A DNA stretch of 64,000 nucleotides, from contig NC_092569.1 of assembly GCF_037975245.1 (NCBI RefSeq), positions 17,525,501 to 17,589,500 on the forward strand. The letters are read 5' to 3'. How positions within the stretch are numbered: the stretch's first letter is position 1; each line of letters opens with the position of its first letter. Below, one piece after another: positions 915 through 62,333 of the stretch. The notes beneath the pieces are model-generated. The model saw only the letters and a list, made by a program, of their open reading frames with translations. It ran no database searches and was not told the DNA's origin. The stretch is from Apostichopus japonicus. Taxonomy: Eukaryota; Echinodermata; Holothuroidea; Aspidochirotida; Stichopodidae. The position numbers and the translations under genes were made by a program.

Positions 915-966
915 AACTTACAGCAAAATGATGGTTTCTCAAGAAATAAGAGAAGTACTGATTCAG
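915..966 (+). CDS. Gene A exon 2 (pro-segment with furin-type site)
   Basis: Follows the acceptor 'taatacag' and ends at the donor gtaagt. It reads NLQQNDGFSRNKRSTDS in phase 0 and leaves one base for exon 3. RNKR followed by S is an R-x-K-R proprotein convertase motif. Confidence 0.8.
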
Positions 967-3900
967 GTAAGTGGGTGAATTTCTTTTGTTGAATTATTAA
1001 GTTATTACTATATGATTAACACATTCTTGATTCTACTGGAGTAAACGTGGTAAGGAAATTTGCTACGGAGGTGGGAGTGGGTGTAAGTGGGTGTAAGTGG
1101 GTGTAAGTGGGGTGTAAGTGGGGGCAGAGTCAGTACGAGCAGTGAAGCCATAACTCATGTTGTAGAAAAGAAAATAAGTTAACTTTTGTAGGAACCTATA
1201 ATAGGTGATCTTCATTTCTTTCTTTTTTGTATTTAAATAGATGCCTCCTACTTTTTCTATCAACAACCTGACTACCCTCGAGATTGTAAGGAAGTTTTTG
1301 AACGATGTGACGGGGAATCTTCAGACGGGGTCTACCTCATACAACCAGACGGATATCTTGAGCCCTTCCCTGTGTACTGTAACAACACTGTAGACGGTGG
1401 CAACTGGATGGTATGTATGGTTTTGTAAGAAATTCCCAAGATAGTGATATATTCATGCATTTCTATACAAAAAAGAAAACAAAACCGTAAGGGTCAGGTC
1501 ATGGTTGTCAGCGTTTTTGAAATATCTATAAATATCAGATGATGAGAACTATTCAGGTCAACGCATGTTTCATTGCAACAAGTCTTTAAATTATGATGTG
1601 CGTTATTTACTTGCCAGTCGTACTTTTAGAACAAAATAGCTCGTTCAACATTCAAAATAGGTCCGCACGTTGAACTTACGTTCAACTTTGTTTTCTAGAA
1701 CGTGAATCATTTCAAGATATTTTATTATAAGTAATGCTGAAATTATCAGACTTCGAACACTGCTATTACATTATGATGGTATGTATTTCTTCAATAAAAA
1801 ATCAAGTAAATCATTCAAATGTCAAAATCCTGTCATATATTCACATTCCAAAACAAACGTCCAATGCTGTACTTTAATGGATAATATAAAACTAACAGAT
1901 TATATAAGGCTGTTTGTATCGGCTACGTTTACATGTTATACACATTTGTACTATTATAGGTCTTCCAGCGTCGATTGGATGGCAGTGTCGATTTCAACCG
2001 TAACTGGGAGGATTATAAAAACGGTTTTGGCTTTCCACATCGCGAATTTTGGCTGGGTAACGAGAAACTAGCTTACATAACAAACCAGAAGGATTACGAA
2101 ATTCGATTTGACTTTGTTTCAAAAAGCGGTGATCCATATTTCGCTAAGTACAACCTCTTCCGTGTGAGCGATGAAGGAACTTTGTACAGGCTGGTGGATG
2201 TTGGAGACTACGACTCGACAAGTACATTAAGTAAGTATTCTATGTCATTAACACTGTTCTATGCTATGTTGTTTAATATAATATTTACATATAGGTTAGA
2301 TGCATAATCGATGGACGTGTATGGTAAGCCCATAGAGGGCCATGATCCATGAAATCGATATAAATTATCGAACACATTGGCATATGTCAGCTTCTTGCAG
2401 TGTCATTGAACAGCATTCTCTTATGTACGATAAATATCTAAAGATTTCCCAACAAATGACATATTCTCAAACTGATTCACACAGAGATAACAGTAACTAC
2501 TGTAAATCTTTAAACGTGTACCACAGTAAATACTGGATTGTGCTGATAAATCTGATAAGTCGGTAGCATGTGCTATTTGGATTACAGTAAGAACTGAGGA
2601 TATGTGTTATTGCAAGAAATCCAGTGGTTGCCATATGTTAGAATTACACATATCCTTAGTTCTCAATGTAATCCTAATAGCACATGCTACCTATTTATAC
2701 CACGATCCAGTTTTTACTTTGGTGCAAACTTTAAGATTTACATTAGTTACTGTGTTCTCTGTGTGTATCGGGGGGATTCTCGTGCATCATTAGCCAAGTC
2801 AAATTGTAGTATGCTGATTAGAAGAAATCGGTATCTCCCGTTAAATAAACATATATAATATTCTCGTACTCTTATTGTCACATGTCAAAGTATAAACTCG
2901 TGATGAGACAAAACTGTAATATACGAAAAGAAAATCGACATATGTCGACCTAAAATCAAGAACAAATCTCCATTAATCGTGAGTATTGCGTGGTTTACAT
3001 ATGACATAATAGTACTTTAACTCTATTGAAATATTTTGGAATTTTGAACAGTATTAAAAACAATGACATATTGTTTTAGTGTCGGTAGAAAACTTCGTAA
3101 TTTGTTTTATCACAATGTTTTTATCTTTCAGCTGTTTGCAAACGTACGTTGTATATTGTGGGACATGTCAGCTGTACAGTATGCATATAAAACATGTATA
3201 TTTAATAAAGACACATAGGCACATAAACAGGAACATTTAATCATAACAGCATGTTTGAAAGCTAACAAAGACAAACCAAGTTCCCTACGCAAGTTAGACA
3301 CTCACATTTCAGTTCACGAGCCTTTACAAATATAACTTTGACTTTCAAATGACAGATGTTAACTAAAGATATAGTTTGCCTTTAAAAGCTAGTGTTATTC
3401 CCAAAAGATGTAATATGACTAGTTATTTTATATAACGTGAATGAACACCCTCCCAATATTTTTTATTTTTTTGAACAGTAGAAACTGAAATTGTAATTAC
3501 TGAACACCTGCATATTGTGTAAAGTAAGTGCCCTCACCACTCTTGTGTATTCAGGAGTGATACGTTGGAGAGCAAGAAAAACATGGCACTAATGGCACTA
3601 TATAAAGTAAATGATTAATAGAGATTAAACATTACCTATTTTCTTCATAAATGGATTGGACTAAGTTTAAACGAAAGTTTAAGAAATAACCCATTATATT
3701 AGTAGATAGAGATATTACTTGGGTTGATTTTCGTCGAAAACACTTTGTCATTGGTCATTGTTAAAACATGTAATTAAACGTTTGGTTTATTAGCACAAGG
3801 AGCTTCTCAATGACGACTGAATAAAAGGAAGTTACATGAATGTGTACCGTCCTTATTAAATGTATGCACTTTTAGCCTTTATTAACCACATTGAAAGACC

Positions 3901-4541
3901 AAAACTATATTCAAACAAGTTTATTACATTAAACAAAAAGACCCAAGCAAGACACAAATGATAGAAATGTTACAAAAGGAGTGGTAGGTTATTGTAGGCA
4001 TCTAGATATAATCATATGTCTACCTAATTACACAATGGTTAATTCGTGAGATTGTGAAGAGGGGTACAATAAGACAAGGAAGTCCAAATCCTGATCAATT
4101 AAAACCATCAAATTGTTCACAGTTCGGCCGAATATGTAATAAAATATAAAACAAAAACCGTTGTTTCCTATGAAATTATTACGAAATAAAATTTAAAAAA
4201 TTATCCAGTCGTCCGAAATCGGGAGGTTAATATGTTTCTTCTTTATATCTAGTAATATGCTGGTTGAATAATTAATAATCTCTGTTTTCTACATCGTGTC
4301 TTTCATAACAGGTTACAATGCTTTGCCAACCAATAGAGGAATGGCTTTCTCAACAAGAGATCGTGACAATGACCTTTCTTCTACTTATCACTGCGCTAAT
4401 CATCATCGTAACGGTTGGTGGTTCAACGCTTGTTCTTATACTTATCCCAACTACCCATGGAGTACTGGTCCTCATTGGCATAACTTTCCCGGCGGTCATC
4501 ACAACATCCAATATATAGAAATAAAGATACGGCCTTTGTAA
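915..4541 (+). CDS. Gene A: secreted fibrinogen-related (FReD) lectin, 5'-partial
   Basis: Exons are 915-966, 1241-1410, 1960-2230 and 4312-4541; the signal-peptide exon lies before the window. The visible CDS is 723 bp (about 240 aa), with clean gt-ag introns in the same phases as the neighbours. Exon 2 carries a furin-type RNKR site. Exon 3 gives the FReD start (PRDCKEVFERCDGE, VYCNNTVDGG). Exon 4 gives FWLGNEKLAYITNQKDYEIR. Exon 5 gives the calcium motif DRDND and the pocket disulfide region HCANHHRNGWWFNAC. It ends in IKIRPL where most copies have MKIRP. FReDs of this kind (ficolin, tachylectin 5) bind acetylated sugars; sugar binding here is inferred from the family. No disabling change is seen. 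Confidence 0.85.
1241..1410 (+). CDS. Gene A exon 3 (FReD N-terminal part)
   Basis: 170 bp after 'tttaaatag', donor gtatgt. Encodes DASYFFYQQPDYPRDC at the start and CNNTVDGGNWM at the end. It has R in VFERCDGE, where A's relatives mostly have Q. The N-N-T triplet is an N-glycosylation sequon. Confidence 0.88.
1960..2230 (+). CDS. Gene A exon 4 (FReD core)
   Basis: 271 bp after 'ctattatag', donor gtaagt. Begins VFQRRLDGSVDFNRNW where the other genes begin with VIQRR or IIQRR. Contains GFGFPHREFWLGNEKLAY and ends YDSTSTL plus one base of the next codon. Confidence 0.88.
2455..2790. mobile_element. Foldback / MITE-like inverted repeat in gene A intron 4
   Basis: The left arm (about 2455-2606) and right arm (about 2647-2790) are imperfect reverse complements around a loop of about 40 bp. 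The inner 44 bp pair well: 'gtagcatgtgctatt' on the left matches 'aatagcacatgctac' on the right. Matching continues outward through 'gatccag' and 'agatttaca'. This is the structure of a non-autonomous foldback element. I found no clear target-site duplication and no second copy. Confidence 0.65.
4312..4541 (+). CDS. Gene A exon 5 (calcium loop, ligand pocket, C-terminus)
   Basis: Follows 'cataacag'. Encodes GMAFSTRDRDND, then a Cys pair with 12 residues between (HC...WWFNAC), then YPNYPWSTGPHWHNFPGG and IKIRPL-stop (TAA). Confidence 0.88.
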
Positions 4542-26820: not shown

Positions 26821-27929
26821 CTTGTATCGTAAATTCATAGAAGATATTCTTCTTGTTATGTTTTGAAAGTAGACTACCCTATTAAAAACAAATCATCCCT
26901 TTGTAATTGACATCAGATGATGGCTTTGAGGGAGGGTTATTTTAGGCTTGTACGTTTTCAATGCGATTGAAACTCACCTTGAAGAAAAAGATTTATAACT
27001 AAATGATGAAACCTTGCCGTTCTTGCATCATCAATGGACGCAATAGACGCAAACATCATACTAGCTTTTAATCACAATATATTGATACCTTAACTATCAA
27101 TTAAACTTTTATTCATTCCCACGGTATCGTATAACCACTGATGGAAGGTGGTAGGAGTGGAGTAGCATTGTTTTCTCTTGAGAGTGATTTAATATCCAGC
27201 TCATCCTTACCGCAGGTTTGCGCAACAGCGATTAATTAATCATGTAGTTGGTATTGAGTTGGATTTTAATTTTCTAAGATATTAAGAGTGAACGGAGCGA
27301 CTTCAATAACTATATTACCGCATACGAAGTAAATATCTACCCTTCCCTCACCTATTCTGCATTTCAACTGCTCATATTTGGAAATGATAACCATTGACAG
27401 TAACCTAGTTTATATTTTTATGTTCCAAATCGTTTAATCGTTTGACTGCCTAACAATGTTTCTTCCATTCAAATTTTATGTTGTCAAATTGTAGTTGTTA
27501 ACAAAGTAATTGAAGATTACAACGCACTTTACCTTTGCAATATCGCCCTTTTCGTCCTCGGATAGACCAATGACAAGAGCCCAAATCGACGTCAGTCTGT
27601 TACATCAGGGAGTAGTTATGAACAACTCCCTGGTTACATTGAACCGATACATAAGGCCGATCAGGCAGATAACGATGCATCATTTTAATAGGTGGATACC
27701 CAATTCATTTTCTAGCCTCTGGCTACACTATACAGGATATTGATAACACGCGACACCCTTATTTTACTCCTAGAAAGCCCTCCTTTTATTGCCAAGACTA
27801 ATGACTACAACTTCACAAATATCAATCGATTCATGTCTCTGATAAATCTAAGGTTGGTATTAAAAGGCATAAAAGTAAAAGGACGGTATTTCATATTGTT
27901 GCTTAGATATTAGTAAACAATATTTTAAT

Positions 27930-27995
27930 GTATAAATGGATCTCCATCTCTACTGTTGAAAGGAATGACGACACGTCAGACTTTTGCCAATCTTT
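27930..27995 (+). promoter_or_regulatory. Promoter-like relic without a gene (C-D)
   Basis: 'ctactgttgaaaggaatgac' and flanks (27949 on) resemble the gene F upstream block (54514 on: ctactgtaagttgaaaggaacgac) and more weakly that of gene B. No signal-peptide ATG exon follows at the expected distance. The duplicate is at 39080-39145. Confidence 0.4.
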
Positions 27996-28084
27996 AGATC
28001 TCAACAGGGCTAACAACAAAACTCCCGAAAAGAGGAATCGCTATAGTATAATACAAACTATTTTGTTTACAGTAATGTTTAGTG

Positions 28085-28154
28085 TTCCGTTACGTCTCGA
28101 ATCTCCGAAAGGAATATTTATAGAATACTGGCATACAGCGCGAGGCACACTCAG
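28085..28154. repeat. Dispersed repeat of about 70 bp, copy 1 of 4
   Basis: 'acgtctcgaatctcc' ... 'catacagcgcgaggcacac'. Copies at 30112-30182, 39229-39298 and 41408-41477, same orientation. The within-block pair is diverged; the between-block pairs are near identical. Confidence 0.75.
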
Positions 28155-28935
28155 AAATTAACGGCGGGAGAAAAAAGTAGATTTGCACATGATAACCACG
28201 ATTCATTGTACACTATCAGTACCATTCATATTTCCAAAGTATCCTCTTTAGCATCTTGCCGACTTCGTTATCAGTATCGACAATACCTTCCTTATTCTAT
28301 TAAATTACATTTATCTTCTCACTTGAGATCAGATTCTCATTTGCCTCAATAATATTCGCGTAACATTTCAAATACTCACTAAGAAAACATATTATATACT
28401 GGTACTAGAACAAACGATCTTCGACAGACTTCTGAATTTCAAACCTACCTACGTATGTCTTTTTTCTTAACAGGACACATGCAAGTATTCCTAATTTCAT
28501 AGTAGTAATAATTGTAAGGCAATAATTATTTACAATAAATAAACATGATACATTCTGTCTTTTGCACCATATACTGGCCGTAACTTGTCTCCCGAGAAAA
28601 TACCATGAATTTGTTCCGAGAAGTGATTTACAGTATAGTGCATAGATAAATTTGTTTGATGGGTTTTAGTTGGTAATGTAACCTGATTCTAGCGACCCGT
28701 GCACACTTTCAGCGTAATGGCAATCTCGTTTACAAACTAAATTTTAACATACCGTATCTTCAGGATGACGTAAAAATTTTACATAAAATGTTACATAAAT
28801 ATTTTACATGAATTATACATACGCTAAACATGGTTAACTAGTAGGAAGATAATATGTTAGTTGTTTTCCAGATTCGTGAAGAAATAGAACGTTGAAGTAT
28901 TTAAAGTTTGATTTCTTACTGATGACGTATAGACC

Positions 28936-29350
28936 GAATTCTAAAGTATTGCGATAAACAAATGGACCTGTAAACCACCGTATCGAAGAGTCCACAAAGA
29001 CATTCCCCTACTACTTGTACAATTACCATAAGGATTTCTACAAACAAGGAGTACGGCTGTCGATCAACGTTGAAAGAATTCTAAAGTATTGCGATAAACA
29101 AATGGAACCAGTAAAACCACCGTATCGAAGAGACCACAAAGACATTTTCCTACTACTTGTACAATTACCATAGGGATTTCAACAAGAAAAGGAGTACGGC
29201 TATCGATCAACGTTGAAAGAATTCTAAAGTATTGCGATAAACAAATGGGACCTGTAAACCAGCGTATCAAAGAGACCACAAGGACATTACCCTACTACTT
29301 GTACAATTACCATAAGGATTTCTACAAATAATGAGTACAACGTTGAAAGA
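28936..29350 (+). repeat. Tandem array of about 143 bp, three copies
   Basis: Units start at gaattc-type sites 28936, 29076 and 29219 and the array ends near 29350 (periods 140, 143 and about 131). Shared words include 'attgcgataaacaaatgg', 'ccaccgtatcgaagag' and 'caattaccata'. The matching array at 40057-40630 has four copies. The antisense open frame is not kept across units. Confidence 0.9.
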
Positions 29351-31439
29351 ATTGTCGTGACTTTCAAAAAGCAATGGTCTTCAAATGACGTGAATTTGCT
29401 CCTCCAACTTACAACTAAACCTACAAATATAAACTATACCGATTGACGACTTTGTCGTGACGATGGTCACAGGTGTGAAATCACTGAGTTCGAAAGTCCA
29501 TATTTATGTTAGTGATAAAATACGTCCTTGAACACTAAACAGTTTTAAACTTGACGTAAAATTTAGCCATGTGTGATATCTCCGTCAGTACAGCTTAACA
29601 ACTACATTTGTCCTAAATAAATGCATGATATTTATTCTTGATAAATTAACATTCATATCGCAAATTAATTAACGGTCTAACCGCCATGTTAGTAAACAAA
29701 TAATGGTATCTGTTGGTAAAAAAAAGGTTGATGATGCTATAAAAAGTAGAGGATGAACTTCGGTTCCAGATCTGATATAGTTGGCAAGGAGTCACAAGGA
29801 TGAGGGACGTCCGGTTTGTTGTCATTGAACTATAGGCCATCATCTCGGCTAGTGCTTGTCGTTCACTAAAGTCACTCCGATAAACAATGATCCATCCAGA
29901 ATCGATCTTTATGAACAAAACTAAACAATGTCACGTCACCAAAGATAATGGATAATTCTGCACGCCGAGGATAGAACTAACGAGCAAATGGAGACCAGTT
30001 CCTTGATCCAGCAAGAATCACGATGATTTGCCGCTTTAAACAAAGTAGATTTTAACATCAAACTAAATTTCTGTATTCTGGAAATACCAACTAGGCATCT
30101 CCACCTCAAATATACTGTTTCGTCTCGAATCTCCAAAAGAAGTTTATGTGGAATACGGGGATACAGCGAAAGGCACACACAGACAATAACGGAGTGATAA
30201 TGTATTCATCTAAAAGCCAAAGCCAAGTCCCTCTAACTACAAGACCCTTAACAATAGTATTTTACAGCATTGAATAATTAAATACATTCATTCATTCATA
30301 AGAACAAAAAGTATGAAAGTAACATTGTAAACTCTCAGTTTATGGTCTATCGAAAACCACGCCATCCTTACCAATTTCAGTGACAATTAAAATCATGACG
30401 TTTGCAAAGGTATTTTTACTTTTAAAGATTCGCTACATGTGTTACATTGATCAGGAAACTCCAATACATATGTTATTGCAAGAATTAAGAAAGCTAAAAG
30501 AATATATACCTTCATTTTCACTGCATGGCCTTCAAAAGTATCTTAATCACCTGCATTCTACATTCTACATGTTTTTGTCGTAATTTTCATAAAAAAAACC
30601 ACAAAAGAGTAAACTACTAGTATGTGCATTGCAGGGAAATTTCTACTATTCTTTAACATGAGATTTACACAAAAGACGCAATCATCTTACGATCTTTCAG
30701 CAAAAATGTAGTTAGACTTTCCTTTCCAGCACAATAAATGTGTTCTTCACTCCCATGGTATTACAGGGGAAAGCAGTAGCAAAGGGTGGGGATGTCAATA
30801 GAGTGTTAGGGGTTATGAGGGTGGTGTAATATCCAGTTCATCCTTTCCGCAAGTTGCGAAACTGCGTAGAAATGTATATTTGTAGTTGGCTTGAGTCTTC
30901 GAAATATCCACCACATTAGGAATAAAGAGAACTTCACGCTGGCTATCCATGTTACCATTATAAAGCTTCTCCTTTAATCGTCAAGACTAAAGACTAGAAA
31001 GGATGAAATAATATTTCAGTGCGACCATGCTCTCGAATATACGAGGCATCTTCATAGCGTTATAAAATAAGTATCGACGGAGGAATAGGAAAGTTAAAAT
31101 CATATCTTATTTGTTGTGGGAAACAAATCATTAATAACATGTATTAATTTTTCAAATGAAATGTCACATGAATTTTTTTTTATATATTTTTTTTTATATT
31201 TGACGATTGAACAAGAACCTAGTGAAAGAGGTTAAGGCCTATTCTGTTTTGTAAGGTACAATAAAATGTATGCAATAGATTTTGATATATATTAAACGCT
31301 AATTATTATAAATTTTACTTCGTTAATAAGTTTACCTTTTCTTTCACAATGATATGGTTAACATGTTCTATTTGATGTACGGTTGTTATTGGAACTCATC
31401 TACATAACTAGAACATACAGCTATCATATTAAAAGTATA

Positions 31440-31603
31440 TTGTATTGCACATGATGGAACTTAACCTTTACGGTTGTTAGGGAATGATCATCTATCCCAG
31501 TATGTCATTCACAAGACACCTCTATGGGGGAAAATTTGAGATTGAATATCACTTCTTCTTGAGCTCTCAACCTGAAAACATCAGCCCAGAACAATTCGGC
31601 AAG
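31440..31603 (+). promoter_or_regulatory. Conserved promoter-proximal / 5' UTR block of gene D
   Basis: 'attgcacatgatggaactta', 'tttacggttg', TATGTCATTCACAAGACACC at 31501-31520 (one base off the TACGTCATT of B and C), 'cacttcttcttgagctctca', then 'ggcaag' before the ATG. Confidence 0.5.
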
Positions 31604-31675
31604 ATGCATCTTTTTATTTCATTCTGTATTTTCGGAGCTTTTGTCTCAAGTCTCCAAGTGTCAGGAAACACAATG
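31604..31675 (+). CDS. Gene D exon 1 (signal peptide)
   Basis: 24 codons, ends SGNTM at donor gtaagt, phase 0. Differs from gene E exon 1 by F against V (SFCIF / SVCIF). Confidence 0.87.
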
Positions 31676-34600
31676 GTAAGTTTCTTATCTGGTCATTTCA
31701 TAGAATGCTTCATTTTGTATTGAAACTTTAACTATATTACCAAACATTAAATTGTTGTTGTCATGATGTGATAGAAACTGAGTGATTTAGATTTTTAAGT
31801 TGTATAAATTGCCGTCCGTCCTTAATGTGTTTTTTTTCTGCAATGCATTCGTTTTAATTTTATTTCCAAACTGTTAACATTTTCTGGTAGTTGAGTTAAT
31901 TAACGAACAACTGAACAAACTTAAAGAAAGTTTAACGTTTTGAGAGTCAACTAGTAGAGCGTTACAGTTGATAGTTGATGTTACAGTTCTGCGTGTAATC
32001 GAATTATGGCTCAGATTGAGCATCCGAAAATTACAAACACACATGTTTGGTAGACTTTAAACCAGATTGTGTAATGTAGCGGTTTAAACCGTTCCATCAC
32101 GTTCGTTTTTTCAACAATTCATACCAACCTTAAGACTAGTAGCACAAACTGATCGGAGGGAAAAATTTTGAAGACCAGATCAATTCATGGTTGTTACAAC
32201 ATATACTAATTACTGAAACAGACATAACCGTTCTTGCAAACGTAAAAGCTTTACCTATACAGAAGAACATCGTCGACACTTAATATAGTGATCTTCTAAA
32301 TACATATTAAAATTTATTTATCAGTTTAAAAGAAATATTTCTCTCTTTGAAATATATGTATCGCCTTAATTTAAATTATAAAATAAAATTATTTTACTCG
32401 GTGGCACATATTATTAGTAAAAAATGTATGTATATAATGTCTAATATCTAAAACATTTTCGGCTGTTTCCTTTAAATAGCTTTGTAAATTTCACAACAAT
32501 ATTACAAAACTTCATTCAGTACCTCTGCAAAATAATCAAAATATACTTAATCGTCTCATGTTGCGATGTATTACTTGCAAGGGGATTTTTAAAATATAAT
32601 ATTTTATTCGATGACACATATTATTAGTAAAAAATATATCTATACAATGTCTCATATCTAAAACAATTTTCGAAAAGTAGCAGATACTTCCTCCAAATTA
32701 GCTTTGTAAATTTCACAACAATGTTATGAAACTTTATTCAGTACCTTATCAAAATAATTTAAATTACATTTAAACTTAAACAGATTTGTTTTAATTTATG
32801 TCTCATGTTGCGATGTATTACTTGTAAGAAGAATTTTAAGTAATATTAAAAACACCGGCAAACAATCACGTGGTTGATATAATATTTTCTAAGTAATGAA
32901 AACGTATGATGCGATAGTAACTTTAAATTCAACTAATCGTGGTCGTTTGTGTAAAGTTGACATGGAACTTGATTGTTTCTCTTATATTTTTTAGATTAAA
33001 ATTGCACGTTAACTCTGTCTGTGTGATAACGTTATACCCTTGATATCACCTTTGGTCAGTAGGTATTTCTTCTAAACATTATCTTTCGTTTGTCATGAAC
33101 TCTCTATGACCTTTGCATTGTGTGCCAATACTATCCTCTAAACTTTCAATCTTTAACGATACTATATGAAGCAAAATATGTTGTCTACTAAACAGAATCA
33201 CATCTGATTTAACGTCTCCTTAAAGATTTTAAGAGTAATAAAAATCTCCCAAAATACATCTTATTATATTTTTTTAAATTTATTTTCTTCGAAACATGAC
33301 TCACAACGTGCCAAAAGCTTTACGAATCTTAACTAACTTTAATTCAAAATGAATAATTGATAAGCAATGGTAACAATGTCAATAGTATATATTACCAATA
33401 TTATCAATACTATGAAGAATTACAATTTTTAGTTTGATTATTTCTTTTTGTTCGATATTCCATAAAATTTATTTGAACTTTTTCCGCTTTATGTGCAAAA
33501 TATTAAGGGCAACTGACATTAGGTCCCATAATAGTTGTATGCTACTTAAGTTTTACTCATCCCCCACCCCCAAGCTTAACTTATAGTATAAACACACTGG
33601 ACCTATGTTAATGAGCCGATTACGTGCTATTATAGATTGCTATTACAGTCGTTAATTCGCTTAGTTGTAAGAAGATAAAAAGACTGAACTTTAAAACTTT
33701 AACGTACTTGCCTTTATTGTTTATAATTGTCGTTATCTTCAACTGTAGCTTTAGCTTTGAAGAATAACGTACGAATTTGCTATTTTCTTTAAATGGTATA
33801 AGCTAACTATACATAAAGGTCGAATATTTCCCATACCATTATTTTGCTTTTCTGAAAGATATCCGTTGTTTAGATTAAACTTTACTGAATGTGTATCAGA
33901 TTTCAATAATCTGTTGAAAGAAATAACGTTTGTAAAGATCGCTGACGTTCACATATTTTTAATATTATTCTTTTTGAAGTGACAAGTAAATTTTTGATAT
34001 ACTGAGAAACATAATAATAGGTCATGTTGTAAAAAAAAACAACTTCGAATTTTATTAAGATTCAAGTGAAATAATAATGAGCACGATGCAATTTGTCCCG
34101 TGAAGTTATGTTTCCTCCTTAATTTATGATGGTTCTTCTATAAAAGTTATCATTGTTATTTTTTTTCTCTCACACATTTCGTTCCATATTGTATGAAAGC
34201 CAAGAACTTTGCAACAAAGAACTAAAGAAGCTTAAAAAGGAAGCTTCTCATAGTCTCATATTGAAGCTGCATCTATAGATCTCTGTAACAATTCAAGATA
34301 TATATATATAGTTCACAAATATCGTAGGAGTTTGCGAAGCTGTTGGACACTCAGCCTACATTGGTGCAGCTGCAAAATTTAGTAGAGATCGGTATATATT
34401 TGATTTATCTTGGAGTCAAAATAACCTTGTTTTCATTTAGTACGGCAATACTTGCCTCTTCTCACATGCATATGCGATTTGGTAAAAGTTAATTGTTTAG
34501 TCAAAATATGATATTGAAGTTAAGTATTCCCCTTCCGTGTGCTTATTTGATACCTTCCATTTAACAGACTTTCTGCAATTGATTTTGCCAATTTTAAAGT

Positions 34601-37600
34601 GAAAGTCACATATCTATGTAGGCAATTTTGCTCAATTATTCAAAATTTCATCATTCAATTGGTGAAGTAAAAGTAGAAGGTTTTGATTTTTTTTCGAATG
34701 ATTTGATATTTGTTAAATCAAGCGTATCGAGTTTATTAATTACTCTTAAATTACATTTAATTTGGTACCAAAAAAAGATGATGATGTCCTTGTTTATTAT
34801 TTAAAATCTTAATTGCTTATTACGTTTAAAAGTGTTGTGAGAAAAAAATTGCAATTTTTGATATGATTGTTTGCGACCGGTGTGATTCGCTTGACTGTTT
34901 AACATATTCTCTACAATACAGGACATGGAGAGAAATGAAGGTTTCACAAGGAATAAGAGAAGTACTAATTCAGGTAAGAAGGTGAATTTATTTCACTGTG
35001 TTAATGACCAATTAAATACAAAACTAATGAATTGTTGATTCTACTGGAGTGCATGTAGTAGCCTTGTTTACAACGGTGGTAGTGGTGTGAAAAACGGACA
35101 AGGCAGAGTTACCGGTGAATTTCCGTCAACAGAGCATGAAAACAAGGACTCATGTTGGAGAAGAAAATATGTATATTTTTTTCAGATAGTAACAACTTTG
35201 AACAATTTGTTGTACTTTCACAGATTCTTCTTACTTTTTCTACCAACAACCTGACTACCCTCGAGATTGTAAAGAAGTCTTTGAACAATGTGACGGGGAA
35301 TCTTCAGACGGGGTCTACCTCATACAACCAGATGGATACCTTGAACCATTTCCTGTGTATTGTAACAACACTGTAGATGGTGGCAATTGGATGGTATGAT
35401 TTTAACTCTGTCTACATTAGCTTCCCAGCTTTCACAGACGACTGTAAAATAAAATAAAATGAATTGGTTTATTTCCATTGAATTGACTCGTAAACTTTCG
35501 TTTAGTATGAGTGCATGTTTACAAATGTTCTATACCTGCAAAAAAGAACAACGTAACATGATGCCTATGATTTATGAAGATCGATGTGAACGTACTTTAA
35601 ACATTAAGAAATACTCGTGATGCTTAATATTAAAACATGTTCTTGATACATATACAGGTTATACAGCGACGCATGGACGGTGGTGTAGAATTCAACCGTG
35701 ACTGGGAGGATTATAAAAACGGTTTTGGCTTTCCACATCGCGATTTATGGCTGGGTAACGAGAAACTTGCTTACATTACAAATCAGAAGGACTACGAAAT
35801 AAGATTTGACTTTGTTTCAAAGAGCGGTGATCCACATTTCGCTAAGTACAACCTTTTCCGTGTGAGCGATGAAGGAACTTTGTACAGGCTGGTGGATGTT
35901 GGAGACTACGACTCGACAAGTACACTAAGTAAGTATTTTATTTCATAGCACTGATGTATGCTATGTTGTTTGATAGAGTGTTTATATAGGCTACATGTGC
36001 TACACTGAGCGAGAGACGTTTGTGATGCGCCTAGATTGCCGTAACTCCTGAAATTGACATATAATGCACTATAAATTGGAATTTTCCAGCTTCTCGCAGT
36101 AGGTACTGTTTATAGAAATGACACCGTTCCAAAATATTGTTTTATACACATAAAAAGAAGAAAAAAGCAAATGTGACTTGTACTTGGCTAAAATGGACTG
36201 CAGTATTTAAATATACAGTTTTAATATCGGTTCCCTGGCAAGAGCATCTCCTTTAGTATATCCTTCAATATTTAACTGGCATTGAAAAGATATGTGCAAA
36301 TACCACAAACAGAACAGGTGACATTTCGATGCAGTTTGGTTTGAAGTTTATAATATCTTTAACAACGCAGAGCACCAATCAACTTACACCGACGTAGTAT
36401 AAATTATGATACATTTTAAAATAATCCAATGAAATTATTCTTGTTTGATTTTAAGTTTAAACTAACGAATATAGTGTCAGTAATTCGCAAATACTCTTGT
36501 CTACCAATTTTTAACCTCTTATCATTTATCAAAGATACATGGTTAAACAAGTTACCAAGTCGTTATTTGAGACAGCATTTTTAAAGATTTAGTTAAAGAA
36601 CAAGGAGATATAGAACTCTTATTAGCACAATTATGGTGATGACCAATGCTCTCAAAACTAGTCATAAAGAAAACCTACTAACTGGAAACAAATTGCCTTT
36701 TGACGTTTAACATCAAGACTTCTGTGTTTGTTCCGCTCTTGATCAAACTTGGATATGACCATTTAAAATTAACAACAATATTCAGTTAGAATCATCAAAA
36801 GGCCTTGTTTTACAAATTGGTGGTACTAAGAAACACTTTCGTGCTTTATTCTGTTACTACATGCAGCATACGGTATAATATGAAATTGGAAATGACCCAA
36901 TTGCAAACTTAATTATCAGAAATATACATTCTTAAATTCAACAAAAAATATCCAGTTGCGATTATATATGGTATACAACATTATAATAGGATTAATCACT
37001 GATATTGTAAATACTGAGTCATAGATGTGTTACTGCAAGACACGACCGTTACGTTACATATAGTACATTGGCTTTTTCGGTATTTTGAAATTTGACAATC
37101 ATCGTCCAAAACTAGCCAGTATTACTTATATCGTTACATACAACCACATTATGTTGGAAAAATATTGGGGACGTAAGTATCCAACCAAATTTGGGTAAAC
37201 CTTTGCCCCAAACAAGTAAAATACACACGATAAATACGCATTTATCCAACCAAAAAATTAGAGTAAACGTTTGCCACAAAACAAGTAAAATAAAGTCAAT
37301 AGGTTACCAGTGCTATGCAAAATATTTGCCAAACTTTATTACAGTGCAACATACGGTATAATATGAAATTGGAAAGGACCCAATTGCAAACCTATTTTTC
37401 AGAAATGTACAATCTTAAAGTCAGCAAAACATATCCAGTTCCGATTATATATGGTATACAACATTATAATAGTAGAGTATCTCTTCGAGGAATGGCATTG
37501 CTTGATAAACTTGAAAATAATGCCATTTCACCGTTTATCTGTCCTTAATATGAAAATAAACAATTTAAAATATATATTAGCCCCATGTTTTAATATTCAA

Positions 37601-40056: not shown

Positions 40057-40630
40057 GAATTCAAAAGTACTGCGATAAACAAATGGAACCTGTAAACCAC
40101 CGTATCGAAGAGACCACAAAGACATTCCCCTACTACTTGTACAATTACCATAAGGATTTCTACAAACAAGGAGTACGGCTGTCGATCAACGTTGAAAGAA
40201 TTCTAAGTATTGCGATAAACAAATAGAACCTGTAAAACCACCGTATCGAAGAGACCACAAAGACATTCCCCTATTACTTGTACAATTACCATAGGGATTT
40301 CAACAACAAAAAAAGGAGTACGGCTATCAATCAACGTTGAAAGAATTCTAAAGTATTGCGATAAACAAATAGAACCTGTAAAACCACCGTATCGAAGAGA
40401 CCACAAAGACATTCCCCTATTACTTGTACAATTACCATAGGGATTTCAACAACAAAAAAAGGAGTACGGCTATCAATCAACGTTGAAAGAATTCTAAAGT
40501 ATTGCGATAAACAAATGGAACCTGTAAACCACCGTATCGAAGAGACCACAAAGACATTCCCCTACTACTTGCACAATTACCGTAGGGATTTCTACAAACA
40601 AGGAGTACGGCTATCGATCAACGTTGAAAG
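40057..40630 (+). repeat. Tandem array of about 143 bp, four copies
   Basis: Units start at about 40057, 40198, 40343 and 40489, ending near 40630 (periods 141, 145, 146, 141). The two middle units share private changes ('aatagaacctg', 'ttcaacaacaaaaaaagg'), showing that one was recently duplicated from the other. Confidence 0.9.
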
Positions 40631-42732
40631 AATTTTCGTGACCTTCAAAAAGCAATGGTCTTCAAATGACGTGAATTTGCTCCTCCAACTTAGAACTAAA
40701 CCTACAAAGATAAACTATACCTATTGATGACTTTGTCGTGACGATGGTCACAAGTGTGAAACCACTGAGTTCGAAAATCCATATTTATGTTAGTTATAAA
40801 ATACTTCCTTGAACACTACACAGTTCTCAAACTAACATTTTAAACTTGACGTGAAATTTAGCCATGTGTGATATCTCCGTCAGTACAGCTTAACAACGAC
40901 ATTTGTCCTAAATAAATGCATGATATTTATTCTTGATAAATTAACATGCATCTCGCAAATTAATTAGCGGTCCAACCGCCATGTTAGTAAAAAAATATTG
41001 GTATCTGTTGGTAAAAAAAAGGTTGATGATGCTATAAAATGTAGAGGATGAACTTCGGTTCCAGATGTGGTATAGTAGGCAAGGAGTCACAAGGATGAGG
41101 GACGTCCGGATTGTTGTCATTGAACTCTAGGCCATCATCTCGGCTAGTGCTTGTCGTTCACTAAAGTCACTCCGATAAACAATGATCCATGCAGAATCGA
41201 TCTTTATGAACAAAACTGAACAAAGTCACGTCACCAAAGATAATGGATAATTCTGCACGCCGAGGATAGAACTAACGAGCAAATGGAGACCAGTTCCTTG
41301 ATCCAGCAAGAATCACGATGATTTGCCGCCTTAAGCAAAGTAGATTTTAACACCAAACTAAATTTCTGTATTCTGGAAATACCAGCTAGGCATCTCCACC
41401 TCAAATATTCCGTTTCGTCTCGAATCTCCAAAAGAAGTATATGTGGAATACGGGGATACAGTGAAAGGCACACACAGACAATAACGGAGCGATAACGTAT
41501 TCATCTTAAAGCCAAAGCCAAGTCCCTCTAACTTCAAGACCCGTAACATTAGTATTTTACAGCATTGAATAATTAAATACATTCATTCATTCATAAGAAC
41601 AAAAAGTATGAAAGTAACATTGTAAACTCTCAGTTTATGGTCTATCGAAGAACACGTCATCCTTATCAATTTAAGTGACAATTAAAATCATGACGTTTGC
41701 AAAGGTTTTTGTTAAGACTTTTCCTACGGTATTTTTACCTTTAAAGATTCGCTATGTGTTACATGGATCAGGAAACTCCAATACATATGTTATTGCAAGA
41801 ATTAAGAAAGCTAAAAGAATATATACCTTCATTTTTACTGCATGGCCTTCAAAAGTATCTTAATCACCTGCATTCTACAATTTGTTGTCCTAATTTTCAT
41901 AGTAAAGTAAACTACTAGTATGCGCATTGCAGGGAAATTTCTACTATTCTTTAACATGAGATTTACACAAAGGACGCAATCATCTTACGATCTTTCAACA
42001 AAAATGTATTTACACTTTCCTTTCTAGCACAATAAATGTGTTCTTTGCTCCCATGGTATTGCAGGGGAAACAGTAGCAAAGGGTGGGGATGTCAATAGAG
42101 TGTTAGGGGTTATGAGGGTGGTGTAATATCCAGCTCATCCTTTCCGCAAGTTGCGAAACTGCGTAGAAATGTATATTTGTAGGTGGCTTGAGTCTTCGAA
42201 ATATCCACCACATCAGGAATAAAGAGAAGAACTTCACGCTGGCTATCCATGTTACCATTATAAAGCTTCTCCTTTTATCGTCAAGACTAAAGACTAGAAG
42301 GGATGAAATAATATTTCAGTGCGACCATGCTGTCGAATATACGAGGCATCTTCATAGCGTTATAAAATTAGTATCGACGGAGGAATAGGAAAGTTAAAAT
42401 AATATCTTATTTGTTGTGGGAAACAAATTATTAATAACATGTATTAATTTTTCAAATGAAATGTCACATGAAGTTTTTTTTCATATTTGACGATTGAACA
42501 AGAACCTAGTGAAAGAGGTTAAGGCCTATTCTGTTTTGTAAGGTACAATAAAATGTATGCAATAGATTATGATATATATTAAACGCTTATTATTATAAAT
42601 TTCACTTCGTTAATGAGTTTACCTTTTCTTTCACAGTGATATGGTTAAAATGTTCTATTTGATGTACGGTTGTTATTGGAACTCATCTACATAACCAGAA
42701 CATACAGCTATCATATTAAAAGTATATAGTAT

Positions 42733-54176: not shown

Positions 54177-54230
54177 ATGCCTAGGATCTCTTGTACCAAC
54201 AACCTGACTACCCGAGAGGCTGTTATAACA
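54177..54230 (+). pseudogene. Orphan, dead FReD exon 3
   Basis: After an intact-looking acceptor 'tttctcccag' it reads DA-stop-DLLYQQPDYPRGC, clearly homologous to DASYFFYQQPDYPRDC of the other exon 3 copies. A TAG falls at codon 3 and the exon loses similarity after the Cys; 'attgtgacgacag' further on may be a trace of CDGES. No sister exons are seen around it, and gene F's own exon 1 starts about 470 bp downstream, so it is the relic of another array member. Confidence 0.75.
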
Positions 54231-54647: not shown

Positions 54648-54713
54648 ATGACTTTCTTTATCATATTTTACATTATTGGAACTTTCGTCTCAAGTATCCA
54701 AGCTTCAGAAGCG
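54648..54713 (+). CDS. Gene F exon 1 (signal peptide)
   Basis: 22 codons ending SIQASEA at donor gtaagt, phase 0. It ends in EA like gene G exon 1, whereas B to E end in SGNT plus M or V. Confidence 0.82.
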
Positions 54714-55795: not shown

Positions 55796-58700
55796 TATAT
55801 ATAACCACTAAATAAATATTAAAGGGATATTCCGTCGGCCGACTATGAGCCATATATATGGAGAAGGAAATCGTCTACACTATTTGAAAACCCGATCTCA
55901 ATATTGTATTTCCAGCTCAATGTATCGTTGATTAAAGGGAAGCTATTTTGACGGGCTAAAGCTCGGTTTTCCCCTTGGAGTGGATCGCAGTCGGTAGCCT
56001 GCAATTTTATTAACGACAAATGTTCTTTAATCGCTTAAGGTATTTCCAGGCACCGTCACCCTTTCGAGAAAAATTCAAAGAGTACTTAGCCATTTGTTGA
56101 TCTGCTTATGAAAATAAAACATATTGGTTGGGTGGAAAACTATAAGTCGTCGAAACAAAACCCGTTAACATTCGTTACTCTTTTGCGACTGAATTTAAAA
56201 CAAAATGCATGCATATAATCAACTGCTACGTGATCAATCTATAGTGCAGTTTTCCTCTACTTGTTTTAATTACAGAGAAATGGAGATGTTGATGGATTTT
56301 CTACAAGGAATAGAAGAAATACTGATTCAGGTATAAAGGAATATTTTTTTATCCAAACATGATGATTTGTGTTTAGGACAGATTTCCTGACCGAGGAAAT
56401 TTCATGGGAAAGAAATGCTGTGGAAATGGACAACAATTGTAGCTCATGCTTAGTATTACTTGCCTGTATATAGTTAACATAGACTATAAGGATGAGTTTG
56501 AACAGACATTTCTGTAACAAGATAGTTTGACATTTTTGATCGTATACTTAAAAATGATCATTATTTAGTAACTAAATAGGTCATGAAAAATTAGTATTTG
56601 CAATTGTCATACAGCATAGGTCCCACAGTACGTCTTATGGGGGAATTAAGATGTTCATATTTTATTGTTCAATGCTTCTATTTCTTATTCGCAGATGCGT
56701 CATATTACTTCTATCAGCAACCTGACTACCCGAGAGATTGTAAGGAAGTCTTTGGACAATGTGACGGTGAATCTTCTGACGGGGTCTACCTCATACAACC
56801 AGACTCATATATGGAACCATTTGCTGTGTATTGTAACAACACTGTAGATGGAGGAGGCTGGCTGGTATTTACTTTTTGATTTTCATCTGTTTTCTTGTTT
56901 TATATTTAGAATATAAATCAAGGATGTAGATGGAGGAGGCCGGCTGATCCTTACTTTTTGGTTTTCATCTGTTTTCTTGTTTAATATCTAGAATATAAAT
57001 CAAGATGTAGACCGAGGAGGCTGGCTGGTAACTTAGCTTATGTGTTACATTATGTTTTCTCTTACATTATCAGTAGATTAGATGGATACAAAATACAGCC
57101 ATAGGTATATCTATCCCTTATATTCAGTATAGAAATTGCCTAAGACAGTGAAAATGCTTTATCTTTTACCTTAAGTTTAACAAGAATAGTTTGTTTCTCC
57201 TTTATGTTTGATTAGTAACTCAAGCATAACGACCACTGCACTCAGTCAATTTAACCAGCTTCTTAGATAATTTTAATAAATGTCTACTTTTTTATGTGAA
57301 CTACTTTAATTCATTCAATGCTAACACCTTATAACAACGTTGTTTATAAGCTACTGTATCAATCGATCTCAAATCTTAAACTAATTGTTCAAATCTTGTA
57401 CAAGGTTTGCTTGCATGCAATGTGACTATTACTGATGGATGACAATATTGACAAAAAACACAAATGTGGATATATTCATTAATTATATACAAATAGATGC
57501 TCATGTCGTGTCAAACGCAATTAGGATGGTCTGTTAATCTGTGTACTTGCAATCTTTGTGTAAGTAACGTATATGGCATTTGCTACATTTGATAAATGGT
57601 AATTGAAGCAAAACAAAAATCAAATCAACTGCTCAGAACAAAAGTTACTTTATATTTATTTACTTTATTGATGATCAAAAATCGTTTTCAGCGTTTTAAG
57701 CCTTTATAGCAAAAAAAAAACACTTTAATGGGCTGAGGTATGAGAGCGTTTTCGTCCCTGAAGAATCACCACTTATTGGATCCCTTTTTAGGCAATAACT
57801 TATTTGTTCTTTAAATAACCAAACATTCATCCTTTCGCGGTCAGTTTTGCCCACGCATGAAATACTTCAATTTTTGATAAAATGTGAAACATAACATCTT
57901 TCATACTAAGCATAACTTATATATGAATTATATTTTAAAGATTATTCAACGCCGATTCGATGCAGGAGTTGATTTTAATCGAGATTGGATGGAATACAAA
58001 CAAGGGTTTGGGTTTGTACATCGAGAATTCTGGCTCGGTAACGAAAAACTGGCCTACATTACAAATCAAAAGGACTACGAACTACGAATTGACTTTGTTT
58101 CCAGGAGCGATGATCATCCTTACTTTGCAAAGTACAATCTTTTCCGTGTCAGTGATGAAGGTACCAAATACAAGTTGGTGGGTCTGGGTGAATACGATTC
58201 TTCAAGTACAGTAGGTTCGTATACTTTTGGAAATCTTAGTTGGTTTGCTTGCCACTAGATGAGAAACTTTAACTACGGTATATTTGACTGACTGCAAAGC
58301 ATTTAATCTCTTTTGTGATATTTGCGTTACAGCATTCCTGCGATTCCATCGTCCAATTCAATGGCAGGATTTCTTCACATATAATCAGTTAGATTTCAAT
58401 TGGTTATAAAAAAAATGGCACTGCCTTTTTCAGATCTGTTGCAACCTCATTTTGCGAACAGAAATCACATTTTACAGATGACATATTGCAATGGTTCGGG
58501 AGGACATTTTCTCTAATCTGGCTCCCAATTTGCACATTTTGAGATTCTCAATTTTGTTACTTATAATGCAACATTTCAGCTGTTTGTCTAAAGATACCGT
58601 TGTAATGTCTCTGCCATCCATATATTCTTTCAGAGTTGTCATTTACACTGTTTGACCTATACATGACTCTTAATCATGATTCTTTAAGCTGTTATCGTTG

Positions 58701-58932: not shown

Positions 58933-60026
58933 ATCGTAATGAGTTGGAAAATCAAGAACAGTGAAAAAACTTTCAGCCTCCACCGGGATTCGAACCATTA
59001 CAAAGGTGTATTACGATATATATATATATATAGTTAATGAGTTAACTTCATATCAATAACCATAACATAAAGTCTAAATAAGTCAAAGAGTTTTGATTGC
59101 ATCCACAAAACATTCCATATCGACCTTTAAAAAAAAAGACTTAAGTTACATTAAACTGGCAATTAGAGGTACCAGTTATAAAACACTAAACGCTTTGAGG
59201 AAAGCATGAAGCGAAGAACGTTACAGGCATCGGCTTGGTCGCTTCTATCCTAAAAACTACCAGTCCTTCTCAAATTGATTTGACGTATGGAGTTTTGCGT
59301 TGCTCCTTTTCGATAAGTTAATAAACAGGTGAATGTCTATGCTATTGATATACAGAATAATGATACGACTCCCCCCATTCGCACCATTTCATGATAATTC
59401 TTAAAATAATCGATTATATGAGTTCGGAAACTATTTTCAAAGCGGGAACTCGAATTAGTAACTAATTGTTCTAGGCATATACGTAAACAAGATTACATGA
59501 GACAGCCTACTGTTTCATTCGATTAAGGGCACATTGTAACTTATTATAATATCTTCTCCGTTGAACTGTCCATTGGATGTAATGATACATTTTCTTTTTG
59601 CTTTGGAATAAGTTACCATATCACAAAGAATAAAAAACGATAAGAACTTCAACGGTCGCATTAAACTCTAAACTAAGTAAATGTATTACAGACCTTCTAT
59701 CGTGGCATGCTGCTGTTATCAAGCTCAGGTCATTTTAATAACTTTTCGTTATTTTTTCCTTGCTATTGCTAGGTTATGATGCCATGGATGCTCATAGAGG
59801 ACAGCCATTTTCTACGAAAGATCGGGATAACGAAGCCCACTCTTCCTATCACTGTGGCAGGAGTCATGCTAATGGATGGTGGTTCAATGGCAGAAATGTG
59901 AACGGTCGGAACTGTTATCATACAATGCCCAACTACCCTTGGAGTTCTTATGGTCCTTATTATCTCAACTTCCCCGGTGGTAATCATAACATACAGTACA
60001 TAGAGATGAAGATACGTCCACTGTAG
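54648..60026 (+). CDS. Gene F: secreted fibrinogen-related (FReD) lectin, complete
   Basis: Exons: 54648-54713, 56276-56330, 56695-56864, 57941-58214, 59773-60026; 819 bp, 272 aa. Signal peptide MTFFIIFYIIGTFVSSIQ; pro-segment 23-40 with R33-N-R-R36; FReD from about residue 51: PRDCKEVFGQC, VYCNNTVDGGGWL, GFGFVHREFWLGNEKLAY, DHPYFAKYN, GLGEYDSSSTVG. The calcium loop reads DRDNE (205-209), Glu in place of the Asp of all other copies. The pocket Cys pair is C216 to C236, 19 residues between, as in gene B. It ends MKIRPL. The exon 4 donor is gttcgt, weaker than gtaagt, and the exon 3 donor region is triplicated downstream. No frame lesion. Same subtype as gene B; secreted lectin role inferred. 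Confidence 0.88.
55637..55790. repeat. C run, (CA)n and (TA)n microsatellites in gene F intron 1
   Basis: C run 55637-55649, CA units 55710-55731, TA units 55732-55790. Confidence 0.95.
56276..56330 (+). CDS. Gene F exon 2 (pro-segment with furin-type site)
   Basis: 55 bp after 'aattacag', donor gtataa. RNGDVDGFSTRNRRNTDS; RNRR fits R-x-R-R. Confidence 0.8.
56695..56864 (+). CDS. Gene F exon 3 (FReD N-terminal part)
   Basis: 170 bp after 'attcgcag', donor gtattt. DASYYFYQQPDYPRDC, VFGQCDGE, PDSYMEPFAVYCNNT, VDGGGWL. Confidence 0.9.
56844..57035 (+). repeat. Triplicated exon 3 end / intron 3 start of gene F
   Basis: 'gtagatggaggaggctggct' plus about 60 bp of intron recurs at 56926 and 57007 (period 81-82 bp). 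Copy 2 has lost the donor ('ggccggctgatcc'). Copy 3 keeps a GT ('ggctggctggtaac') and could act as a decoy donor. Gene B has only one copy. Confidence 0.88.
57941..58214 (+). CDS. Gene F exon 4 (FReD core)
   Basis: 274 bp after 'attttaaag', donor gttcgt. IIQRRFDAGVDFNRDWME, HREFWLGNEKLAY, RSDDHPYFAKYN, GLGEYDSSSTVG. Confidence 0.88.
58794..59018. mobile_element. SINE-like element bounded by 14-bp inverted repeats
   Basis: tatcgtaatacacc at 58794-58807 is the reverse complement of 59005-59018. Between them lie a (TA)n tract of about 69 bp (58860-58928) and a stretch whose minus strand contains GGTTCGAATCC (58986-58996), a perfect tRNA B-box / T-arm word, in a 'cctccaccgggattcgaacc' context. 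This suggests a tRNA-derived SINE head on the minus strand. No complete tRNA cloverleaf is visible. Confidence 0.55.
59773..60026 (+). CDS. Gene F exon 5 (calcium loop, ligand pocket, C-terminus)
   Basis: 254 bp after 'attgctag'. HRGQPFSTKDRDNEAHSS, HCGRSHANGWWFNGRNVNGR followed by NC, ends MKIRPL-stop (TAG). Confidence 0.9.
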
Positions 60027-61050: not shown

Positions 61051-61200
61051 GAGAAGGTACAGCTGACCGCTGTTGAAAGTGGGAAAGTACCACTGACCGC
61101 TGTTGAAAGTGGGATGGTACAGCTGACCGCTGTTGAAAGTGGAGAGGTACAGCTGACCGCTGTTGAAAGTGGGAAGGTACAGCTGACCGCTGTTGAAAGC
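61051..61200 (+). repeat. 30-bp minisatellite, five exact-length units
   Basis: Unit 'ggtacagctgaccgctgttg' followed by 'aaagtgggaa', five copies of exactly 30 bp with one or two substitutions each. Confidence 0.95.
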
Positions 61201-62258
61201 GGGAACTCGTAGAAATAAAGGAGAGGGATATGAGGTAGTAAGGCTGCAGTGCTGAGTTAAGTTTTTACTTGAATATTAACATAAGTAACGTGGGTCTTGG
61301 GGGGTATTATAGATGAGGGCTCAAGCAGATCAAAGTGAAACGCTTCACTACGTAATGATTATAATTGGAGCTATTTCATTACATCTAATAAGTTATTTTT
61401 AAACTCTGGAAATGGGCGCAAAAACCAAGTCTGTATAGTATATTGGATTATTCTCATTTTTCAGCAATTCGAGTCTTGATGCACATGGTCAAGATTAAAT
61501 TACATGATTTGGTTCCAAGTTGTCTTATCATATTTACGGCCTTTTATTAAAGGTATCTGGCTGCAATAAACTAAATCATATATTTAGCACAATGAAAAAC
61601 GTTGTCATGAAGAAGTTACCTAAGAAGACCAATGACAACAACGCCCATTGTAGATTCCATTACCACAACCATTACATCTTACCTCGGGAAGAAACTTACT
61701 CTTAAATGAGTGTAGTAAACCAAAACAGAATAAATTCCAATTAGTCACAAATATTGCACACGTTATACTACACTGCTCCACCACCCAAACTAACATCATT
61801 TGTTTATTTTTATACTGGTACGTACTACCCTAATGATTCAATCATATTGGCTACTTCTCATTTAAAGTATTTTATGAGGCGAATATACCCTATAGGTACG
61901 ACCGCGCATTAATTCGTGGATAGGAGCATTATTAGTCGATCTCTGGAAAGTCATATTAAGACAGAAATTCTTGCCCTTAATATCCGGATCTAGTTTTACG
62001 AATCTAATGACATGGAACTCATTACATGGGGAAGGTGAGGTAAACTGCATATACTGCTGATTAATTTCCCTCAACACTAGTGACATTGGGGAAGGACTAC
62101 ACCCATTACCAGAGTCCGTCGATTCGAGGCTGGTGGATCTTCGATGCTTCGGTAACAAAGAACCTTTCACAATGTGTTTCCTTTTTATTGTGAGTGGTTT
62201 CTAAGTCAAAAGATTCATTCTTCCATGAGCTATCGTTGTGGAAAGAGCTGAGGTCAAA

Positions 62259-62333
62259 ATGAAGTTGATCGTGCTATTATCTGTAACCGCTGTAGTTTTC
62301 CACGACTTTCAAGCGATAGCAACTGACGAAGCG
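62259..62333 (+). CDS. Gene G exon 1: probable signal-peptide exon of a seventh array member
   Basis: 25 codons: MKLIVLLSVTAVVFHDFQAI, then ATDEA, ending at donor gtaagt in phase 0, the same exon 1 phase as B to F; gene F also ends in EA. It has a hydrophobic core typical of a signal peptide and 'caaaATG' context. No exon 2 is seen in the remaining 1.67 kb, but intron 1 of the others is 1.6-3.5 kb, so the rest probably lies beyond the window. Membership in the FReD family is inferred from position and exon form only. Confidence 0.55.

Follow-up and report, generated by a model that had tools for sequence, protein, structure and literature searches.

Expanded families of genes encoding fibrinogen-related domains (FReDs) are often cited as invertebrate recognition repertoires, and the steps by which they were built are seldom legible in sequence. 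In the sea cucumber Apostichopus japonicus, fibrinogen-related proteins (FREPs) are described, in the accessible part of a published study, as the most expanded family, located mainly on LG02, with 21 FREP genes in tandem on Scaffold75 (PMC5638244); the accessible part of another paper repeats the account of the expansion and the cluster (PMC13228809). Here we analysed a 64,000-nucleotide stretch of the A. japonicus genome (the window; NC_092569.1, positions 17,525,501 to 17,589,500, forward strand), in which an earlier sequence-only reading had proposed a head-to-tail array of at least six FReD lectin genes with one exon-phase plan. We conclude that the window covers the left third of a germline array in which 18 genes for small, probably secreted FReD proteins stand in tandem; the array probably grew by repeated unequal exchange, and it varies most in one loop over the predicted ligand site. 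We give this explanation as a whole a probability of about 0.75.

Extent of the array and the common gene plan

Searching the window by tblastn with the exons of its leftmost gene, A, recovered six copies each of exons 3, 4 and 5, all on the plus strand and head to tail, as had been proposed. E-values were 3.6e-36 to 1.8e-31 for exon 3, 7e-59 to 2e-44 for exon 4 and 7e-50 to 1e-20 for exon 5, ruling out chance resemblance as the source of the copies. Spliced models of genes A to F keep AG/GT at each border and share one phase plan; B to F have five exons with intron phases 0, 1, 0 and 1, and their exons measure, in order, 66–72, 52–55, 170, 271–274 and 227–254 bp. Exon 3 is 170 bp in all six window copies, which agrees with the sequence-only reading.

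A search of the flanks, 80 kb leftward and rightward up to 220 kb in window coordinates (about 24 kb past the array), extended the array to 18 genes (A to R), two orphan last exons and three exon-3 relics over about 197 kb of a single strand. Both suspected edge genes are real: exon 1 of gene A lies left of the window, and gene G, tentative until then, continues to the right, where its exons 3 and 5 lie and its exon 4 is broken in two (Table 1). The 80-kb left flank yielded only the gene A exon, the best exon 3–5 match there having an E-value of 0.55. On the right, the final exon ends at 195410, no further exon 3–5 match was found in the last 24 kb read, and homology to the array stops near 199.2 kb (blastn).

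Across the array, exon 3 measures 170 bp and has AG/GT borders in 18/18 genes, the 17 unbroken copies of exon 4 are 271 or 274 bp long, and each of the 18 genes could be assigned an exon 1 followed by a GTAAGT donor. Exon 2 was placed in 15 genes, each with R-x-[KR]-R. In H, N and R, rule-based searches located exon 1 and fixed the precise borders of exon 2, the exon 2 rule demanding that motif; tblastn without the requirement matched the same places. Two points count against the overall explanation: the motif-based search found exon 2 in none of G, M and Q (0/3), where the plan is incomplete, and the junctions as modelled are predicted from homology and splice signals.

A genome scan with exon 4 of gene D, in which 150 of 1192 candidates were scored, returned the 17 unbroken exon-4 copies of the array as its top 17 matches (72–100% identity; next match, 71%). 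The contig carrying the window holds 143 of the 150, which parallels the concentration on LG02 described in the accessible text (PMC5638244). Both loci are tandem sea-cucumber FReD genes, 21 there and 18 plus two orphan exons here, and the array may be the published cluster. We found no exon plan, exon-4 hybrid, nested repeat or loop analysis for that cluster in the accessible part of the report (PMC5638244), and no description of an exon-4 hybrid or nested blocks in literature searches for these two features.

Elsewhere on the same contig a larger, dense FReD array occupies about 16.16–16.85 Mb on the minus strand, with 35 of the 150 scored matches at 57–64% identity between 16.16 and 16.72 Mb and three more at 70–71% near 16.84 Mb. 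Other clusters of scored matches lie near 11, 18, 23, 25–29 and 32 Mb.

The FReD assignment made by the sequence-only reading stands. Gene A, on which Pfam was run, matches Fibrinogen_C at 2.7e-54 (184.8 bits, cutoff 22) over residues 12–221 and profile positions 2–220 of 221, and the other genes are tied to it by tblastn. The term lectin is unproven, the acetyl-pocket residues discussed below not being conserved. Exon 1 encodes a hydrophobic leader (a predicted signal peptide), exon 2 encodes 17–18 residues with RNKR, RSKR or RNRR, which we take to resemble a furin-type site, and exons 3–5 encode one FReD split over three exons. All 15 genes without a known lesion have five cysteines in exons 3–5, an odd number, and one of them, shortly after the first conserved Cys, does not occur in the ficolins aligned with the array proteins. 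The products would be secreted into the body fluid and cleaved after R-x-[KR]-R, and their fifth cysteine would be free and might join subunits to one another.

The 10-mer LAYITNQKDY is encoded by 15 of the 17 exon-4 copies that are unbroken, M and Q being the exceptions, and by all six copies in the window. In the available part of a proteomic source it is listed for the coelomic-fluid cell pellet of Holothuria tubulosa, under the A. japonicus techylectin-5B entry A0A2G8LHI5; as listed it may be cut from a longer peptide, the peptides met there being 10-mers (PMC13208588). Further FReD proteins are reported from H. tubulosa coelomic fluid in the accessible text of another paper (PMC12119288).

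Hybrid gene D and the growth of the array

Gene D is a hybrid, E-like to the left of a point in exon 4 and C-like to the right of it. Across the 644 sites that group D with either C or E, the maximum-chi-square split fell inside exon 4 (Table 1), with 169/182 sites E-like before it and 402/462 C-like after it, and none of 2000 permutations was as extreme; 124 further sites group C with E. In 300-bp windows, D and E have an identity of 0.92–0.99 between 27.7 kb and the last base of exon 4; it falls to 0.44–0.47 in the first part of intron 4 and is 0.67–0.80 beyond. Identity between C and D is 0.39–0.86 before exon 4 and 0.77–0.97 from exon 4 onward.

Sequence comparison, judged by identity tables and the permutation test, places C, D, E, I, J, K and O in one type (D-type), with A nearby; F, L and P are F-type, G, M and Q are G-type, and H, N and R are H-type. 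Intron 3 is 0.75–1.00 identical across all seven D-type genes; intron 4 exists in two unrelated forms, one in C, D, I and J and one in E, K and O, with an identity of 0.44–0.45 between them. Gene B is exon-wise mosaic, its exon 1 being D-type and its exons 3–4 nearer to F.

The types recur in the order H-type, orphan exon 5, D-type (3, 3 and 1 genes), exon-3 relic, F-type, G-type, with no orphan exon 5 seen in the first block. The relics, at 54188, 124253 and 172045, lie upstream of F, L and P, respectively. Two repeat scales are nested here, gene units of about 11 kb lying within multigene blocks that recur at about 70 and 47 kb. In blastn pieces, 60.6 kb aligned at offsets of 69.5–71.0 kb (89.6% mean identity), 44.6 kb at 46.5–49.0 kb (88.5%) and 47.0 kb at 116.0–119.5 kb (91.7%), these bins taking in some unit-level matches. 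In places the first and third blocks are the closest (96.5% over 9.9 kb; 97.6% over 5.4 kb).

Because D switches partner in exon 4 and the array is a nested tandem repeat, the unequal crossing-over proposed by the sequence-only reading is well supported; same-strand tandem copies with a hybrid gene are what it is expected to leave. We envisage repeated exchange between misaligned copies at both scales, at least one of which, running through exon 4, would have left D with a 5' half from one paralogue and the ligand-end exon 5 from a second.

Several observations sit less easily with this history. The C/D stretch downstream of exon 4 is 88.7% alike and the block after it 96.0%, so at least two events are needed for the duplicate, and one exchange does not fit the two tiers of divergence; a single tandem duplication for D and E was dropped on the same difference in age. 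B is only loosely H-type, its exon 5 being 0.72–0.76 identical to H, N and R and 0.70–0.72 to F, L and P, with introns at 0.39–0.52 to either type. The relic at 172045 has an E-value of 0.007, and the orphan exons 5 (h and n) show a ratio of nonsynonymous to synonymous differences (pN/pS) of 0.21–0.52 against D-type genes, which may date from constraint before orphaning.

The mosaic could also be the work of gene conversion, with old copies between which short tracts were copied later, an account that we consider rather unlikely. It is consistent with the comparison of synonymous sites, where exon 3 is less diverged than exon 4 in 8/8 pairs of A, C, D or E with B or F and significantly so in 7/8 (Fisher p <0.05), from 5.5e-07 for A–B to 0.021 for A–F, the pairs not being independent. 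D–F was not significant (p 0.078) and A–F is weak, and a slower synonymous rate in exon 3 would equally account for the contrast. Block 27724..35934 is either duplicated or homogenised later, and its 96.0% identity next to an 88.7% flank suggests homogenisation. However, copy number, head-to-tail order and multigene periodicity require duplication by unequal exchange, and the switch in D runs from the whole 5' flank to the whole 3' flank, over several kilobases.

We also considered whether there are fewer genes than counted here, the near-identical copies being duplicates introduced by assembly, a concern raised by the sequence-only reading, or haplotypes left unpurged. Identity is 96% over 8.1 kb between D and E, 97.2% over 6.4 kb between C and J, and 97.6% between 67.1–72.5 kb and 184.4–189.8 kb, with some 250-bp stretches identical. 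However, D resembles two different genes, E to the left of its switch and C to the right; the copies also differ in their flanks, their microsatellites and the copy number of their minisatellites, indels are many, and no block exceeds 97.6% among the listed pieces of at least 700 and at least 1200 bp. The probable source is a HiFi assembly, with mean reads of 14.7 kb according to the accessible text (PMC10344927). Assembly duplication was therefore rejected as the main cause, and we regard it as very improbable.

Three genes carry lesions: in C an in-frame TAA interrupts exon 5 close to its end, so that the gene is likely truncated or dead; N has a stop inside exon 5; and exon 4 of G is disrupted by a 367-bp insert (66738-67120) that lies between copies of an 8-bp repeat and whose inverted ends are similar, resembling the trace of a non-autonomous hAT-type element. 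The 250-bp flanks of the two orphan exons 5 are alike to two decimals (1.00). Since three genes carry lesions and exons have been orphaned, the history of the array is one of birth and death, and the earlier description of an expanding cluster is too simple.

A further idea is that exon 4 acts as a hinge for swapping ligand-end cassettes, the orphan exons 5 being possible alternative last exons or conversion donors. It is suggested by the shared phase of the exon 4–exon 5 introns, the two non-homologous intron-4/exon-5 halves that D-type genes carry after a shared 5' half and the two intact orphan exons, and we think it improbable. If true, one scaffold would be paired with several ligand sites in the germline, perhaps also by splicing.

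The exon 5 loop and possible functions

Variation among the seven D-type genes is concentrated in one part of exon 5. Variable columns number 4/56 in exon 3, 10/90 in exon 4, 7/40 in exon 5 outside the loop and 23/41 within it, so that the loop exceeds the remainder (23/41 v 21/186; Fisher, 3e-9). The H-type genes with B give 23/43 v 22/186 (1.8e-8), figures that include one outlier because B is only loosely of this type, and all 17 genes with an unbroken exon 4 give 40/47 v 85/187 (5.6e-7). Ratios of nonsynonymous to synonymous rates (dN/dS) for exons 3 and 4, the non-loop part of exon 5 and the loop are, in this order, 0.14, 0.11, 0.21 and 0.48 in the D-type, whose exon 5 set includes the two orphan copies, and 0.09, 0.09, 0.16 and 0.57 in the H-type, pairwise counts not being independent. 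The F-type loop has 8 nonsynonymous and 0 synonymous pairwise differences.

By alignment of gene J exon 5 to PDB 4m7f, the loop corresponds to FIBCD1 396–438, in a numbering (construct 236–461) that agrees with the residues named in the available part of the structural report (PMC3908420). This segment holds the calcium carbonyls, the Cys401–Cys414 bridge and pocket residues 405, 415 and 431, with Trp443 just outside. Equivalents of Cys401 and Cys414 are present in 18/18 genes, and the calcium-site aspartates D393 and D395 appear as DRDND in 15/18 and as DRDNE (Glu at 395) in F, L and P. In gene J, Tyr405 is kept, 415 is Ser, 431 aligns with Trp and 443 with Gly, by a sequence alignment whose gapped section ahead of 431 is uncertain. 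Across the 18 genes the residue at 415 varies among Ser, Tyr and Ala and is never His, and FPGG (443 = Gly) is kept.

Because exons 3–4 stay constant while the loop over the known ligand site diverges, our best-supported working model is a soluble recognition repertoire, in which one scaffold would carry many ligand sites and be released into the body fluid. An immune lectin role is plausible, and to that extent the sequence-only reading may hold.

Other results weigh against this model. The excess is weak in the F-type loop (4/44 v 3/186 columns, p 0.027), and the G-type loop has a dN/dS of 0.12, not elevated. Where computable, loop dN/dS is below 1, a value no less compatible with relaxed constraint than with diversifying selection. 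The acetyl-pocket set Tyr405, His415, Tyr431 and Trp443 does not occur intact: since His415 and Trp443 are kept in none of the 18 genes, the predicted ligand site has been reshaped, and binding of acetyl groups cannot be taken for granted.

Tissue repair or matrix remodelling by tenascin- or angiopoietin-like proteins, whose expansion would have served visceral regeneration and not microbe recognition, is a serious rival, and one that we judge possible but not probable. A. japonicus FREPs, including the 21-gene tandem cluster, rise in visceral regeneration according to the accessible text (PMC5638244), gene A finds its best PDB match in tenascin-R (3.1e-41), and the altered acetyl pocket is consistent with such a role. 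However, the best PDB matches of gene F are ficolins, and diversity in a loop over the ligand site with conserved exons 3–4 is more expected of a recognition repertoire. A related FREP of H. glaberrima is induced by lipopolysaccharide in the intestine, though not in coelomocytes, in the accessible part of that report (PMC2702171). As a defined set of close domains differing mainly in one loop, the array suits testing whether FReD expansion diversifies binding.

Further features and comparison with known systems

Coordinates of the genes and of further features are collected in Table 1. The first exon of gene G has counterparts ahead of M and Q. No other genes or mobile elements were found between the units (10 of the 50 listed open reading frames of at least 75 aa were run on Pfam, giving 3 weak matches and 0 passing the family cut-off), and an Rfam search gave 0 matches at gathering scores. 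An 82-bp tandem repeat (56843-57035, 2.4 copies) overlaps the end of gene F exon 3 and copies its donor region, which could yield decoy splice sites. In intron 4 of gene A, at about 2500-2770, two stretches appear by eye to be mutual inverted copies, resembling a miniature inverted-repeat transposable element.

Table 1. Features of the FReD gene array in window coordinates; negative positions and those above 64,000 lie outside the window.
Feature	Position	Strand	Description
Gene A exon 1	-1763..-1692	+	exon with donor, about 1.7 kb left of window
Gene A exons 2–5	915-966, 1241-1410, 1960-2230, 4312-4541	+	spliced model
Gene B	9908-9979, 12703-12757, 12992-13161, 13985-14258, 15995-16242	+	spliced model, five exons
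Gene C	20486-20557, 23106-23157, 23406-23575, 23938-24208, 26315-26541	+	spliced model, five exons
D/E duplicate block	27724..35934 v 38872-47491	+	96.0% identity, 7809/8131 aligned bases
142-bp minisatellite	28936..29338	+	tandem repeat, about 3 copies
Gene D (hybrid)	31604-31675, 34922-34973, 35224-35393, 35658-35928, 37677-37903	+	spliced model, five exons
Gene D switch point	35811..35816	+	inside exon 4, maximum-chi-square split
146-bp minisatellite	40057..40634	+	tandem repeat, 4 copies, counterpart of 28936..29338
Gene E	42897-42968, 46475-46526, 46778-46947, 47212-47482, 49146-49384	+	spliced model, five exons
Exon-3 start relic	54177..54230 (approx.)	+	upstream of F, tblastn
Gene F	54648-54713, 56276-56330, 56695-56864, 57941-58214, 59773-60026	+	spliced model, five exons
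Gene G exon 1	62259..62333	+	signal peptide, sole G exon in window, like first exons of M and Q
Gene G	62.3-68.2 kb	+	exons 3 and 5, split exon 4 at 65.8-68.2 kb
Gene H	71.9-78.3 kb	+	array gene
Orphan exon 5	83145-83378	+	downstream of H, intact, acceptor and stop
Gene I	90.4-96.6 kb	+	array gene
Gene J	101.7-108.6 kb	+	array gene
Gene K	113.6-119.8 kb	+	array gene
Gene L	125.0-130.3 kb	+	array gene
Gene M	132.4-138.3 kb	+	array gene
Gene N	141.6-148.0 kb	+	array gene
Orphan exon 5	154537-154770	+	downstream of N, intact, acceptor and stop
Gene O	160.3-167.0 kb	+	array gene
Gene P	172.5-177.7 kb	+	array gene
Gene Q	180.0-185.5 kb	+	array gene
Gene R	189.2-195.4 kb	+	array gene

Tachylectin-5A, ficolins and FIBCD1 have the same domain, and D393, D395 and Cys401–Cys414 of FIBCD1 align with the array proteins. 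Unlike FIBCD1, the array proteins have a shorter stretch after Cys414, replacements at His415 and Trp443, and one additional cysteine. Ficolins have a collagen-like stem, which the array proteins lack: in the 15 genes with both exons, exons 1–2 encode about 40 residues and show no Gly-X-Y repeats. The FREPs of the snail Biomphalaria resemble the predicted array products in being secreted, multigene and C-terminal in their FReD, with an assumed recognition role. Snail FREPs have immunoglobulin-like domain(s) before the FReD, for which exons 1–2 of the same 15 array genes are too short. Their diversity is partly somatic, according to the accessible text (PMC13428168), whereas the array diversity seen here is germline.

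Among echinoderms, the Sp185/333 (SpTransformer) genes of the sea urchin are, in the accessible literature, an immune-gene array likewise shaped by segmental duplication and repeats; unlike the present array, they belong to an unrelated protein family, with genes of two exons and less than 2 kb. Loci of the present kind are known, but the layered repeat structure is unusually legible here, with gene D recording an exon-4 exchange that joined the scaffold to the ligand-end exon of another gene within a two-level repeat.

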